Assembly: GCA_002841865.1 (NCBI GenBank)
Contig: PHBD01000008.1
Location: 62,001 to 126,000, forward strand
Direction of reading: 5' to 3'
Source: Deltaproteobacteria bacterium HGW-Deltaproteobacteria-19
GTDB taxonomy: Bacteria; Desulfobacterota; Syntrophia; Syntrophales; PHBD01
DNA length: 64,000 nucleotides
How positions within the stretch are numbered: position 1 is the stretch's first letter; the number at the start of each line of letters is the position of its first letter. Below are positions 11,294 to 18,355 of the stretch, piece after piece. The position numbers and the translations under genes were made by a program. Under the pieces are notes generated by a model that was not told the DNA's origin, made no database searches, and saw only the letters and a program-made list of their open reading frames with translations.

Positions 11294-12853
11294 TCAGGCA
11301 ACCTCTTGGACGCTCTGGCCCGGCCCGTTCGATCCGCGCCCCTTCTCCCTGTATTTTCGTGGATCGATGCCCAGCTTCTGGATCTTGTACTGGATAATCC
11401 GCTTCGTCGTTCCCAGGAGCCTCGCTGCCTGGCTCTGGTTGCCGCGGGTCTCCTTCAGGGCGTCGACGATCAGTGTTCGTTCCTGGGCCTCTACGACGGA
11501 ACTGAGCCGTCCCGAATCCTTCTTTTCCCCTGCCCGGGTCTTGACCTGTAATGATGGAGGAAGGTGCATGATTTCAATGGAATCTGCCTCCGCCAGGAGG
11601 ACGGCTCGCTCGATGCAGTTTTCCAATTCCCGGACGTTGCCCGGCCAGGGATGGGCCAGGAAGGCCTCAACGACGGCCGTGGAGATCCGGTGGACCGGTT
11701 TCCCCAGTTCCTGCGAGTACTTCAACACGAAGTGATCGGCCAGCAGGATGATGTCGTTGCCTCGTTCCCTGAGCGGCGGCAGGTAGATGGGGAAGACGCT
11801 CAGCCGATAGTAGAGGTCGGACCGGAACTGGCCGCCGGCAATGCATTCCTCCAGGCGGCGGTTGGTAGCCGCGACGACCCGGGCGTTCGTGTGGACCAGC
11901 CGTGACGAGCCCAGGGGCTGGAACTGCTTTTCCTGGAGCACCCGGAGCAGCTTGGCCTGGGCGGCGGCTGAGAGCTCCGACACCTCGTCGAGGAAAATGG
12001 TTCCATTGTTGGCCTCTTCGAAGCGGCCCCGGCGCTGTCTTAATGCCCCGGTGAAGGCCCCTTTTTCATGTCCGAAAAGCTCGCTTTCCATCAAGGTATC
12101 CGGAATCGCCGCGCAGTTCACTTGGATAAGGGGACCCTTGCCGTGGGGACTGTTCACGTGGATCGCCTGGGCAACCAGTTCCTTCCCGGTGCCCGTCTCG
12201 CCCAGGATCAGAACGGTCGTGCCCGAGTCGGAGACGTGGCTGATGAGTCCGAATACCTCCTGCATTCCCTTGGAATGACCGATGAAATCCACGGACGGCG
12301 ACCGTCCCTGGTTGATGAGCCGGCGGAGCCGGCGGTTCTCCTCTTCCAGCGCCAGGATGTGGACTGCCTTGGCGATCAACTCCGCGACGGCGGTGAGCAT
12401 GGAAAGCTCCCGGTCCAGGTCGACCACGGATCCGGCGCCCTTGTCGGCCGACAGGATGCCCACAACCCGGTTGTCGTACATAATGGGGACGCACAGGAAG
12501 GCCAGTTCTTCGCGGTTCAGGAAGCGCCGGGCTCCCGTCCTGTCGAGGAACAGGGCCTCCTTTCCCAGGTTTGGGATCGCCATGGGGCGGCCTGTCTGGG
12601 CCACCTTTCCGGTGATCCCCTCCCCCATACGGTAGGTGATCTCCAGGCCATCGAGATTGACGCCATGGGCGACGTCCAGCCACGCCTCGCCGGTATCCCT
12701 GTCGAGAAGGGAAATCATGCCGCGTTCCATCCCCAGCCGGGCGTGCATCTCATTGAGGACGCGTTCAAGCTGGTCCCGCAATTCCCACGGCTGGGCAAGG
12801 ATCTTGGCGATGGCATGAAGGGCCGCCAGTTCTTCGAAACTATGGATGCTCAC
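11294..12853 (-). CDS. NifA/NtrC-type sigma-54-dependent transcriptional activator with GAF sensor domain
   Basis: A 519-residue enhancer-binding protein. Residues of about 10-170 form a GAF domain. The AAA+ domain carries Walker A GETGTGKE (218-225) and the sigma-54 contact loop GAFTGA (265-270). The C-terminus has a Fis-type helix-turn-helix (NQSQAARLLGTTKRIIQYKI). The GAF-AAA-HTH order is that of NifA, but no nif genes are visible. The next genes downstream in the same direction are the split GOGAT and GSIII, headed by a sigma-54 promoter, so this is most likely their activator. The GAF ligand is unknown; in NifA relatives the GAF domain senses 2-oxoglutarate or GlnB-type proteins. A possible sigma-54 element also precedes this gene. 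Confidence 0.92.
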   Translation of the reverse strand: MSIHSFEELAALHAIAKILAQPWELRDQLERVLNEMHARLGMERGMISLLDRDTGEAWLDVAHGVNLDGLEITYRMGEGITGKVAQTGRPMAIPNLGKEALFLDRTGARRFLNREELAFLCVPIMYDNRVVGILSADKGAGSVVDLDRELSMLTAVAELIAKAVHILALEEENRRLRRLINQGRSPSVDFIGHSKGMQEVFGLISHVSDSGTTVLILGETGTGKELVAQAIHVNSPHGKGPLIQVNCAAIPDTLMESELFGHEKGAFTGALRQRRGRFEEANNGTIFLDEVSELSAAAQAKLLRVLQEKQFQPLGSSRLVHTNARVVAATNRRLEECIAGGQFRSDLYYRLSVFPIYLPPLRERGNDIILLADHFVLKYSQELGKPVHRISTAVVEAFLAHPWPGNVRELENCIERAVLLAEADSIEIMHLPPSLQVKTRAGEKKDSGRLSSVVEAQERTLIVDALKETRGNQSQAARLLGTTKRIIQYKIQKLGIDPRKYREKGRGSNGPGQSVQEVA

Positions 12854-12910: not shown

Positions 12911-12926
12911 AACAAGAAGTGTGCCA
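12911..12926 (-). promoter_or_regulatory. Possible sigma-54 promoter of the activator gene
   Basis: TGGCACACTTCTTGTT on the minus strand, 58 bp upstream of the activator start, matches the -24 element exactly and most of the -12 element, but has GT where GC is nearly invariant. It could support autoregulation. The intergenic gap (12854-13039) holds nothing else recognisable except a short leader-like ORF at 12977-12991. Confidence 0.35.
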
Positions 12927-13039
12927 ACGACGAGAATCTATACATTTTCGTAAAAAATAGCAATAGGAGGACAGAAATGTTTCTGGTATGAAACTTGAAG
13001 ATGAGGGATCAAGGCAACTTCAAAAGGGGGTCATTATCC

Positions 13040-15631
13040 ATGGTATCGTTTTCCCGGGTCTCGACCGGCATCGAGGGGCTGGACAACATCCTCAACTATC
13101 TGCAAACGGGCGACAATGTCGTTCTCCAGGTAGACGACATGGAGGATTACCGGTCCTTCGTCCTTCCCTTCGTCAAAACGGCCCTGGAGAACAAAGAACG
13201 GGTCGTCTACATGCGCTTCGCCCGCCATGCGCCGCTCCTGGAGGCCACCGGCCAGGTGACCATCTACAAGCTCAACGCCGACATGGGGTTCGAGTCCTTC
13301 TCCACGCAGGTCCACAACATCATCCGGCAGGAAGGCCCGGACGTTTTCTATGTTTTCGACTGTCTCTCGGATCTTTTGCACGCCTGGGCCACGGACCTGA
13401 TGATCGGCAACTTCTTTGTCATTACCTGCCCTTATCTCTTCGAGCTGAATACCGTCGCCTATTTCGCCATTCTCCGGAGCCGCCATTCTTTCAAGACGAT
13501 CGCCCGGATCCGGGAGACGACCCAGGTGCTCCTGGACATTTACAACTACAAGGGAAAGCTCTGCGTTCACCCCCTCAAGGCCTGGCATCGCTATTCACCT
13601 ACCATGTTCCTTCCCCATATCCAGACCAACGGCCGTTTCACGCCGATCATGAACAGTGTCGACGCCACGAACCTGTTCGCCTTCCTGGCCCACAAGGGAT
13701 CCGTCGGCGCCGAGCGGAATCTGGATTACTGGGACCGCAACTTTATGCAGGCCCGGGAACTGGCCCAGGATCCCGAGGCAGGAGACGCGAAGCGCAGCAT
13801 GGTGGATCAACTTTCCCGCGTCCTCATCGGCCGGGAGAAGCGGATGCTGTCGCTGGCAAAGGATTTTTTCAACCTGGAGGATCTGCTGGAGATCGAGGAG
13901 CGCCTCATCGGCACGGGGTTCATCGGCGGAAAATCCGTCGGCATGCTCCTGGCCCGGAATATCCTCCGGAAGGACCGGTCCTTCGAATGGGACGCCAAGC
14001 TGGAGCGCCACGACTCCTTCTATATCGGTTCCGATGTCTTTTACTCCTACATCGTCCAGAACGGCTGGTGGAAACTCCTGATGGCCCAGAAGACCAAGGA
14101 AGGCTATTTCGAGTGCGCCGGGGAGCTTCGGAACGTCATGCTCCGGGGCGTTTTCCCGGAGGAAGTGCGGGAGCAGTTCCAGTTGATGCTTGAATACTTC
14201 GGCCAATCCCCCATCATCGTCCGCTCCAGCAGCCTTCTGGAAGACGCCTTCGGCAACGCCTTTGCCGGCAAATACGAGAGTTACTTCTGCGCCAACCAGG
14301 GTACGCCGGAGCAGCGCTACGAGCACTTTGAGGAGGCCGTGCGCCGCATCTTCGCCAGCACCATGAACGTCGATGCCCTGACCTACCGGGTTCAGCGCGG
14401 CCTGGACCAGCAGGACGAGCAGATGGCCCTCCTCGTCCAGCGGGTGTCCGGATCCTACCGGAAACATTATTTTTTCCCGGAACTGGCCGGTGTCGGGCTT
14501 TCCCACAACACCTTCGTCTGGAAACAGGGCCTGGATCCCAAGGCGGGGATGCTCCGGCTGGTCCTGGGGTTGGGAACCCGGGCAGTCAACCGGGTCGAGA
14601 ACGATTATCCAAGGATTGTGGCCCTCGACGATCCCCTGCTGAAGGCCCATTCGGGGCTCAACGACGCCCGGCGGTTCTCCCAGCACGACGTGGACACCCT
14701 CAATCTGGAGGAGAACCGCTTCCAGTCGCTGCCGCTGGAACAGGTGGTCCGGGAGGAACTGGACGCGCGGCTGGACCTGGTGGGCACCCGGGACATGGAG
14801 GCTGCGGACCGCCTGCGGGCCTTGGGCAGACCGGAAACGGACAGCTGGATCCTGACTTTCGATGAACTCCTCTCGACGACGGATTTTCCCGACACCATGT
14901 CCCGGATGCTCAAGACGCTCGAAAGGGTCTATGAATATCCGGTGGATATAGAGTTCACGGCCAACTTCAGCTCCCAGGGAAGCCTGCAGGTCAACCTGCT
15001 TCAGTGCCGTCCGTTTCAGACGCGGGGCCAGACGGTCCAGGTGGACATCCCGGCGCGGATCCGGAAGGAACGGGTGCTCCTCCGCCAGGAAGGCAACTTC
15101 ATGGGCGGAAGCATCTCACAGCCCATTTCCCGTGTGATTTACATCGATCCCCAAGGGTATACAAAATTGTCCCTCTCGGAAAAGTACGACGTGGCCCGCC
15201 TCATCGGCCGTCTCAACAAGCTGGTGGAGAACCGCGAGGAAACGCCCACGGCCCTCCTGGGACCGGGGCGCTGGGGAACGACGACGCCGGCCATGGGGGT
15301 TCCCGTGACCTTCTCGGAGATCAACAACATCACCGCCATTGCCGAGATCGCCTACCGGGACGGGAGCCTGATTCCCGATCTCTCCTTTGGAACCCATTTC
15401 TTCCAGGACCTCGTGGAGATGGAGATCTTCTACATGGCCATCTATCCCGAAAAGGAGAAAGTCTTCTTCAACACGGCGTGGCTCACGGCCTTTCCGAACC
15501 GCCTGAAGGACCTTTCCCCCCGGGACGGTGCCTACGAAGAGGTGGTCCGGGTGTATGACGTGCAGGAGCACCATCTGAGGCTCATGTCGAACGTCGTAAC
15601 ACAGCAGCTGATCGTTTACGCCCGGGAATGA
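13040..15631 (+). CDS. KaiC-like domain fused to a PEP synthase/PPDK-type ATP-grasp domain
   Basis: An 863-residue protein from ATG 13040, which follows AAAAGGGGG; ATG 13001 and TTG 12995 are alternatives. The first 200 residues begin like KaiC (RVSTGIEGLDNILNYL). Where the P-loop should be they read TGDNVVLQVDDMEDYRSF, so the nucleotide loop is lost. The middle resembles the N-terminal nucleotide-binding domain of PEP synthase and pyruvate phosphate dikinase (IVRSSSLLEDAFGNAFAGKY and a QCRPFQT end). The phosphohistidine and PEP-binding domains are missing. A further C-terminal region of about 200 residues (ALLGPGRWGTTTPAMGVP) is not one I can name. It is divergent from the nitrogen activator and convergent with gdhA. 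The function is unknown. Confidence 0.85.
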   Translation: MVSFSRVSTGIEGLDNILNYLQTGDNVVLQVDDMEDYRSFVLPFVKTALENKERVVYMRFARHAPLLEATGQVTIYKLNADMGFESFSTQVHNIIRQEGPDVFYVFDCLSDLLHAWATDLMIGNFFVITCPYLFELNTVAYFAILRSRHSFKTIARIRETTQVLLDIYNYKGKLCVHPLKAWHRYSPTMFLPHIQTNGRFTPIMNSVDATNLFAFLAHKGSVGAERNLDYWDRNFMQARELAQDPEAGDAKRSMVDQLSRVLIGREKRMLSLAKDFFNLEDLLEIEERLIGTGFIGGKSVGMLLARNILRKDRSFEWDAKLERHDSFYIGSDVFYSYIVQNGWWKLLMAQKTKEGYFECAGELRNVMLRGVFPEEVREQFQLMLEYFGQSPIIVRSSSLLEDAFGNAFAGKYESYFCANQGTPEQRYEHFEEAVRRIFASTMNVDALTYRVQRGLDQQDEQMALLVQRVSGSYRKHYFFPELAGVGLSHNTFVWKQGLDPKAGMLRLVLGLGTRAVNRVENDYPRIVALDDPLLKAHSGLNDARRFSQHDVDTLNLEENRFQSLPLEQVVREELDARLDLVGTRDMEAADRLRALGRPETDSWILTFDELLSTTDFPDTMSRMLKTLERVYEYPVDIEFTANFSSQGSLQVNLLQCRPFQTRGQTVQVDIPARIRKERVLLRQEGNFMGGSISQPISRVIYIDPQGYTKLSLSEKYDVARLIGRLNKLVENREETPTALLGPGRWGTTTPAMGVPVTFSEINNITAIAEIAYRDGSLIPDLSFGTHFFQDLVEMEIFYMAIYPEKEKVFFNTAWLTAFPNRLKDLSPRDGAYEEVVRVYDVQEHHLRLMSNVVTQQLIVYARE

Positions 15632-15734: not shown

Positions 15735-17108
<1,374 letters not shown>

Positions 17109-17130: not shown

Positions 17131-18210
17131 CTACCCGGCGTTCCTTCCCGGGAGCGCCGCGGTGCTGCTTTTTTTTCTGTTGGTCGGCCGGCCCTGGTAA
17201 CGCTTCAGAATCTGGTCGAACGGTTCCATCTCCCCATACTCCATGACGGCGGACATGGCGCGGTTATCCACGTCCAGGCCGGCTTCCCCGACGCAGGCCA
17301 CCGGATTGAGGCCACCGATGAGAACGATTCCGACCCGGTTCATCTCCACGGGAGTCTGGCAGACAGGCTCGCTGACATCACCCTTCACAAGGATCCCGTC
17401 GATGCCCGCCCGGGCCAGCCCGGCCAATTGCTGCTCCATCAGGGGCAGGCAGGGTGCCGGGATCTCCCGGAAATTGGCCAGGATCATTCCTTCACCCTCG
17501 TCGACGACGCTCCGGACGGAGGTCATCTTCCCCCGGATGAAGACCTCCGACGGGTCCAGGGACGACCCGGAGTAATGGATCAGCTCCACAAACCGGAGAG
17601 GGTGGCGGTTTTTCACCTGCAGGATGCCGCCGAACTTGGAGTCCATGGGAATGCCGTTCTTCAGGAGAACGCCGTTGACCACGATGCTGCACACCGTGGC
17701 CAGCCCTACGCGCCCCTCGGGAACGAGGAGTCCGGCGAGGCGCTGTCCCGGCCCGGCCATGGCCACGCGCCGGCTTACCGTGTAACCCGCGTTGAACACC
17801 GGTTCCATGATCCGAAGCGCATCGGGAAATGTCTCCTCCGACAGGAGCGAGATGTTCACCGGCAGGAGCCCCCGGCCGGTTTCCGGCTCGAACGTGGTCT
17901 GGAAGGCCAGGATCTCGATGCGGGAATTGGCCAGCCCCACCTTGTCGCGGACCCGGGCTCTGCCGATCTCCTCGATACCCTTTTCCGTAATGACTCGCCC
18001 GTCCCTGTTGCCGATCAGCCTTGTCAGCCCCCGCTCGTCCATGAGCTTGAAGTGATAACGGACGGCCCGCTCGCTCGAGGGAAGACCCCGATCCTGCATC
18101 CGCCGCGAGATCAGACGCGACCCTACAGGCTGACCCGCCTCGTGAAGGATGCGGAGGATCATCAGGGTCTTGCGTTCGACATCGGCGGGTGTGGTGAATG
18201 GGGAAACCAT
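17131..18210 (-). CDS. NrpR-like nitrogen regulator (winged helix plus one DUF128 domain)
   Basis: A 359-residue protein from ATG 18210 (the frame is open upstream to 18318 but lacks support there). The first 75 residues form a winged-helix domain (KTLMILRILHEAG, ERAVRYHFKLMDERGL). The rest matches the DUF128/NrpR regulatory domain (LLPVNISLLSE, GLATVCSIVVNGVLLKNGIP, DGILVKGDVSEPV, IVLIGGLNPVACVGEAG). In methanogens NrpR represses nitrogen-assimilation genes and releases DNA when 2-oxoglutarate binds DUF128. Bacterial forms usually have one such domain, as here. Its position as first gene ahead of gdhA fits a nitrogen role. Operator and effector are inferred. Confidence 0.85.
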   Translation of the reverse strand: MVSPFTTPADVERKTLMILRILHEAGQPVGSRLISRRMQDRGLPSSERAVRYHFKLMDERGLTRLIGNRDGRVITEKGIEEIGRARVRDKVGLANSRIEILAFQTTFEPETGRGLLPVNISLLSEETFPDALRIMEPVFNAGYTVSRRVAMAGPGQRLAGLLVPEGRVGLATVCSIVVNGVLLKNGIPMDSKFGGILQVKNRHPLRFVELIHYSGSSLDPSEVFIRGKMTSVRSVVDEGEGMILANFREIPAPCLPLMEQQLAGLARAGIDGILVKGDVSEPVCQTPVEMNRVGIVLIGGLNPVACVGEAGLDVDNRAMSAVMEYGEMEPFDQILKRYQGRPTNRKKSSTAALPGRNAG

Positions 18211-18238
18211 CGGCAATCGGCCATCCTTTGCCGATGCA

Positions 18239-18277
18239 CCTACACGGGATGAGACAATCTTGTCAACACAAAATTGG
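18239..18277 (-). promoter_or_regulatory. Possible promoter and operator of nrpR-gdhA
   Basis: On the minus strand a perfect TTGACA (18266-18261) is followed 16 bp later by TGTAGG, a weak -10. Directly upstream of the -35 lies CCAATTTTGT, the complement of ACAAAATTGG at 18268-18277. This is a one-base variant of the paired motifs upstream of the GOGAT operon. The arrangement suggests shared control but is unproven. Confidence 0.35.
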
Positions 18278-18355
18278 TCTTTTCCGATTAGCGCCCCCTT
18301 CGGCATCGCCGCCTGCAATATCAGCTGGGAGCGATCTCCCGGCGGATCAACCCGT

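Follow-up and report, generated by a model that had tools for sequence, protein, structure and literature searches.

An 863-residue protein combining a KaiC-like head, a PPDK_N ATP-grasp domain and a new C-terminal domain as a candidate partner of glutamate dehydrogenase

Introduction

A defining feature of the dikinases of the ATP-grasp type is a swivelling phosphohistidine domain, which carries the motif T/SxxGGxxxH (PMC12167813). Rifampin phosphotransferase (RPH) no longer inactivates rifampin when it is mutated at Lys22, Arg117 or Thr136 (PMC4844700). In the two-component dikinases HpeHI, CreHI and PpsAB (phenylphosphate synthase) the PPDK_N domain works on a separate chain from the His domain (PMC12167813). 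Here we describe an 863-aa protein with a PPDK_N domain that is encoded in a stretch of 64,000 nucleotides from Deltaproteobacteria bacterium HGW-Deltaproteobacteria-19 (contig PHBD01000008.1, positions 62,001 to 126,000), in the following referred to as the window.

Glutamate dehydrogenase (GDH) provides one of the two main bacterial routes by which ammonium is fixed into glutamate. Post-translational regulators of dehydrogenases include AceK, which acts on isocitrate dehydrogenase, and GarA, which acts on GDH. Rapid and reversible inactivation of bacterial GDH upon shifts in ammonium has been reported in physiological work, and we know of no agent that has been identified as its cause. Our literature search, with subscription papers mostly outside it, found no paper that connects proteins of the PPDK_N type to GDH or to KaiC, and the protein family presented here is apparently undescribed.

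Results

The gene (13040..15631, + strand) encodes a KaiC-like head, a PPDK_N ATP-grasp domain and a new C-terminal domain and is present in one copy in its own genome. Its ATG at 13040 closely follows a GGGGG stretch that resembles a ribosome-binding site; an alternative in-frame TTG upstream at 12995 would extend the protein to 878 aa. Full-length relatives with 58–80% identity were found at 79 of 80 fetched loci, which according to the genome labels belong mainly to Deltaproteobacteria/Desulfobacterota and also to Planctomycetota, Omnitrophota, Nitrospirae and Spirochaetes. The 80th locus (L060), from a genome labelled Anaerolineales, holds a partial copy that is 78% identical to the 863-aa protein, probably on a misbinned contig. 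Because invariant positions are dense over the entire length of a 77-member orthologue alignment, we regard the 863-aa protein as a conserved functional protein rather than a chance fusion. The AlphaFold2 model of the whole chain reached a pLDDT of 86 and a pTM of 0.86. PPDK_N is its sole above-threshold Pfam match, and no Pfam or NCBIfam model was found to cover any part beyond this domain.

The PPDK_N domain comprises residues 295–676 (13922..15067, + strand; E 1.6e-52). RPH is the top Foldseek match of this part, and a profile alignment to PEP synthases of related genomes spans the whole domain (Prob 98.6). In profile alignments, K298, R395, S414, E638, Q655 and R657 are the counterparts of ATP-site positions in RPH and PEP synthase, the first three aligning with Lys22, Arg117 and Thr136 of RPH. 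A diverse alignment of 26 members with identities down to about 25%, from which the antisense-shadow ORFs L156, L158 and L159 were left out, shows K298, R395, E638, Q655 and R657 to be identical in 26/26 members and in all architectures. Judged by these residues, the ATP site looks functional. An earlier note on this DNA, made from the letters and their reading frames, had recognized a PPDK/PEP-synthase-type ATP-grasp domain here, and the strong PPDK_N match together with the intact ATP-positioning residues agrees with this assignment. The same note had pointed out that a phosphohistidine and a PEP-binding domain are absent; likewise, our Pfam and NCBIfam profiles returned neither a PEP-utilizers nor a PEP-binding domain anywhere in the 863-aa protein. 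A separate small His-domain partner was also considered and rejected, as the three PEP-utilizers matches of the same genome belong to ORFs with lengths of 641, 777 and 856 aa. If only its single Pfam match is taken into account, the protein could pass for an ordinary PEP synthase or PPDK that is degraded or misannotated. We consider this highly improbable given that the His and PEP/pyruvate domains are missing, that the scores of NCBIfam PEP-synthase models are far below cut-off, that the tail is unrelated and that the genome has a PEP synthase-like gene of its own.

Residues 664–863 (15029..15628, + strand) form a C-terminal domain with the motifs GPGRWG (741–746) and PDLSFGTHFF (779–788). 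When modelled alone this domain reached a pLDDT of 91.8 and a pTM of 0.90, indicating that it folds independently. Neither Pfam nor NCBIfam assigns residues ~664–863 to a family, and a Foldseek search against solved structures in the PDB gave no significant fold match (best E 0.011). G741-P-x-R-W-G, E769 and S782-x-G-[TS]-H786-F-F show little or no variation down to ~25% identity, and R744, E769, S782 and His786 are invariant in 26/26 diverse members. His786 (codon 15395..15397, + strand), which is also found in 77/77 orthologues, is an obvious candidate for carrying the phosphoryl group or for a role in catalysis. We rejected the idea that the tail is a divergent phosphohistidine swivel: hhalign gave a Prob of 0.3% to PEP-utilizers, and Foldseek no significant match. 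The swivel motif T/SxxGGxxxH is absent around His786, where the sequence reads SFGTHFF. The weak top Foldseek hits of the tail include a TRiC apical domain and a PA domain, which we take to represent the swivelling beta/beta/alpha fold class, so that a very remote link is conceivable. Since the tail lacks a relationship to PEP-utilizers, the swivel motif and a significant fold match, phosphorylation of His786 is a guess. In the earlier note this region figured as an unassigned tail of 200 residues. No family can indeed be assigned to it, but rather than a loose end it is one half of the conserved core described below, and no other part characterizes the family as strongly. The further suggestion that the phosphoryl acceptor must be another protein or a small molecule is not compelling, as the invariant His of the tail could itself be the carrier.

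The head (residues 1–246; 13040..13777, + strand) is a RecA/KaiC-fold domain without Walker A. In a Foldseek search with the AlphaFold2 model, it matched KaiC (4tlb) and the archaeal FlaH ATPase (4yds) with E about 3e-9 to 8e-9 and TM 0.68–0.69 by target length. The stretch STGIEGLD is followed by GDNVVLQVDD at the expected position of Walker A; across the 77 orthologues this position mostly reads GDNVV[WLF]QV[DE], and GxxxxGK[ST] occurs in none of them (0/77). A Walker-B-like YVFDCLSDLL is still present. Membership of the MEDS sensory domain (PF14417) was rejected, as its best match, at the N-terminus (E 0.0086), falls below the Pfam gathering score; it covers ~40 residues of the window protein, and any match is seen in only 6/30 members. 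A KaiC-like domain devoid of a P-loop had already been read from the sequence of the window, and fold and orthologues extend this to the whole KaiC-headed family. The absence of a P-loop from a KaiC-fold head and the lack of a recognized carrier domain would also suit a protein that binds ATP and serves GDH in assembly, as a chaperone or as a scaffold, without phosphotransfer. Yet the ATP-site residues and His786 are fully conserved, which suggests chemistry and makes such a role quite unlikely.

The pseudo-ATPase of KaiC fold is not the fixed head of the family that it appeared to be from the window, but one among several interchangeable ones. The core, consisting of ATP-grasp domain and tail, is combined with no fewer than four kinds of N-terminus: the head of the window protein and its orthologues, which is KaiC-like, a head of ~180–200 residues without Pfam match in proteins of ~770 aa in total (L141–L145, L147, L149), a longer head without assignment (L148, L150) and a tandem receiver (REC) head, recognized by Response_reg matches in L151 and L153. 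The core is constant and the head exchangeable. At one of these loci (L148:5014-8229, - strand), a core protein of 1071 aa carries an extra C-terminal NTP_transf_2 nucleotidyltransferase domain and is encoded directly beside a GDH gene. Two Planctomycetota genomes (G407:C345 and G526:C10) have two core copies of different lengths side by side, possibly two architectures that act together.

For Desulfobacterota, we screened 297 genomes for both the tail domain and the GDH family PF00208. GDH was found in 80/80 core-positive and 118/217 core-negative genomes of this phylum (p 9e-18) and in 27/28 core-positive and 47/117 core-negative genomes of Omnitrophota (p 1.6e-8), p-values that ignore kinship among the genomes, thereby overstating their independence, and that are uncontrolled for genome size. 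In Planctomycetota, where 30/30 core-positive and 156/169 core-negative genomes have GDH, the enzyme is near-universal and the test powerless. The agreement of three phyla and several architectures is the main safeguard for these uncorrected tests. Taking the three phyla together, GDH is present in 137/138 core-positive genomes; the one without a detected GDH (G594) has a short core ORF. Gene order points in the same direction. Among the matches listed, at least 55 of the 80 core-positive Desulfobacterota genomes have a GDH gene no more than 8 kb away from the core, where chance would account for ~0.7% per genome, and four further neighbouring pairs seen directly (G103, G306, G155, G337) raise this to at least 59/80. 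GDH also adjoins the core in at least 9/30 core-positive Planctomycetota genomes and, among Omnitrophota, in at least G349, G574, G588, G632 and G690.

The link to GDH is seen for each head type. In the types with other than KaiC-like heads, GDH and core usually form a same-strand pair whose genes are arranged from small overlaps to ~100 bp apart (L142, L143, L145, L147–L151, L153, L154). In the window, the proposed partner gdhA (15735..17090, - strand) encodes an NADP-specific glutamate dehydrogenase (PRK09414 above cut-off) and is convergent with the gene of the 863-aa protein, tail-to-tail at a distance of ~100 bp, so that the two are not co-transcribed. Since GDH occurs without the core whereas the core almost never occurs without GDH, the core fits an accessory or regulatory factor. 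Overall, gene order and co-occurrence make the partnership of the core with GDH well supported, and it could reflect a shared pathway instead of physical regulation. Comparison of GDH from core-positive and core-negative genomes for a modification site yielded only Ser391 of GdhA, a weak candidate that we rejected: Ser is found in 91% of core-positive genomes versus 6/20 core-negative ones, with Ala otherwise, and this difference is probably a matter of phylogeny.

The gene is divergent from that of a GAF-AAA-HTH sigma-54 activator (11294..12853, - strand), which we name no further than NifA-like because its score of 469 bits with TIGR01817 is below the curated NifA cut-off of 528.85. Beyond gdhA follows an NrpR-type nitrogen repressor (17131..18318, - strand; NRD1_2 4.7e-79), so that the gene indeed lies between the activator and gdhA-nrpR, all three on the minus strand. 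At least one nitrogen-assimilation gene was found within five ORFs of 67/81 KaiC-headed loci. These genes comprise GdhA, pieces of glutamate synthase, type III and type I glutamine synthetase, an ammonium transporter, P-II, NrpR and the NifA-like activator. The orthologues are hence not placed at random, and the link to nitrogen proposed in the earlier note stands, but the partner that is tracked is GDH rather than the activator.

Activator-type neighbours are mixed: 28 of the 81 loci (19 from Desulfobacterota, including the window, and 9 from Planctomycetota) have one whose match to the window activator extends over almost the entire protein and takes in the GAF region. The remaining ones match in the AAA/HTH part only; these are probably NtrC-type regulators, and many have a Cache-type histidine kinase as a neighbour. 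We found NrpR in 27/80 core-positive versus 37/217 core-negative Desulfobacterota genomes (p 0.004, uncorrected for phylogeny or genome size). An obligate partnership of NrpR with the core was rejected, and because NrpR is found in so few core-positive genomes we consider it a looser associate than GDH. The activator orthologues in two phyla, the NtrC-type regulator and histidine kinase at other loci and the enrichment of NrpR are all in line with a signalling protein that controls transcription of nitrogen genes through the NifA-like activator or NrpR, with GDH as one target gene among others. However, two-thirds of the core-positive genomes have no NrpR, and the types without KaiC-like head pair tightly with GDH, often without such regulators alongside. 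A role of this kind is therefore unlikely.

Several further features of these neighbourhoods were recorded. A -24/-12 (sigma-54)-like element, TGGCACACTTCTTGTT (12911..12926, - strand), points at the NifA-like gene; such elements are not more frequent in the window than expected by chance, and this one is notable for its position and its recurrence, as similar TGGTACGATA[CT]TTG[AT]T sites lie in this intergenic region of four close relatives (L032–L035) as well, which suggests that the activator gene itself may be sigma-54-dependent. Sigma-54 promoters upstream of the gene of the 863-aa protein were rejected, with 3 matches versus 2.05 expected in 78 upstream regions and hence no enrichment. 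The sequence GGAAN6TTCC, which we take to be the operator consensus of archaeal NrpR, occurs in the window at 11920, 21846, 28286, 40318, 47301, 48887 and 52374. These 7 matches to an archaeal consensus compare with 2.2 expected, 7 being reached in 3/100 shuffles, and none of them lies next to the start of gdhA, nrpR or the gene of the 863-aa protein. A protein of ~200 aa without Pfam match is encoded between gdhA and a pair of sigma-54 regulator and Cache histidine kinase at L076 (5807-6415) and 14 other Desulfobacterota loci. At three Desulfobacterota loci (L096, L097, L099), genes for HdrA-like and HdrC-like heterodisulfide reductase proteins lie upstream of the gene on the same strand.

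Discussion

We propose that the 863-aa protein is an ATP-dependent phosphotransferase dedicated to GDH that regulates this enzyme post-translationally, a reading to which we assign a probability of about 0.48. In more general terms, the protein probably serves GDH as a switch or helper of a kind not yet described. The ATP-grasp domain would bind ATP via the same residues as RPH and PEP synthase; these sites can be read from the alignments, and catalysis is presumed from them. The phosphoryl group would then pass to a nucleophile, most likely His786 of the tail, which would take over from the swivelling phosphohistidine domain. From there, it might be transferred to GDH, or the phosphorylated tail might dock on GDH, where both direction and chemistry are our assumption. 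As a result, GDH activity would be turned off or on as the supply of ammonium, 2-oxoglutarate or energy shifts. The interchangeable heads (dead KaiC, tandem REC and others), whose swapping is observed, may provide the signal or a docking surface.

The main rival to post-translational regulation of GDH is a small-molecule dikinase in the GDH pathway that phosphorylates a metabolite, e.g. 2-oxoglutarate, glutamate or a GDH effector. It holds this rank because the characterized PPDK_N-type ATP-grasp proteins known to us act on small molecules or glycans and not on proteins (PMC4844700, PMC12167813), PEP synthase phosphorylating pyruvate and RPH rifampin, and the many invariant polar residues of the tail are typical of an active site. 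On the other hand, swappable sensor-type heads including REC and a strict dependence on GDH look regulatory, and a recognized substrate-binding domain like that of PEP synthase or RPH is missing. Overall, we regard an action on a small molecule as conceivable but doubtful.

The regulatory reading that we prefer can be extended to the family as a whole. A dikinase-type ATP-grasp could have been turned into a modular and widespread GDH regulator, in which a His of a new carrier domain is phosphorylated and this domain acts on GDH and in which plug-in heads tune how ammonium is assimilated in Desulfobacterota, Planctomycetota, Omnitrophota and, probably, further phyla. We put this forward as a tentative picture that may well prove wrong. 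Still, the gene is a concrete candidate for a GDH regulator that tracks GDH across phyla and combines an intact ATP site with an invariant-His domain and interchangeable heads. If true, the dikinase fold would extend from the phosphorylation of metabolites to the regulation of enzymes, and the tail would define a new domain family.

How does the 863-aa protein compare to known systems? With the dikinases RPH, PEP synthase and PPDK it shares the PPDK_N ATP-grasp domain and the corresponding Lys, Arg, Ser/Thr, Glu and Gln residues of the ATP site. In contrast to these enzymes, it has no recognizable swivelling phosphohistidine domain and no pyruvate/PEP or rifampin domain, in place of which it carries the new tail and a sensor-like head. 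Since the defining swivel domain is absent, we consider the protein a variant of the ATP-grasp dikinases and not a member of the dikinase family. HpeHI, CreHI and PpsAB have their His domain on a separate recognizable subunit, whereas in the genome analysed here no small subunit of this kind was found. The head has its fold in common with KaiC and FlaH of the RecA superfamily, whereas in the 863-aa protein a single RecA-like domain is fused to an ATP-grasp domain and Walker A is lost in 77/77 orthologues. AceK and GarA, whose folds and chemistry are presumably unrelated to those of the 863-aa protein, resemble it in the logic that we propose, namely that a dehydrogenase at a branch point of metabolism is controlled by a factor of its own.
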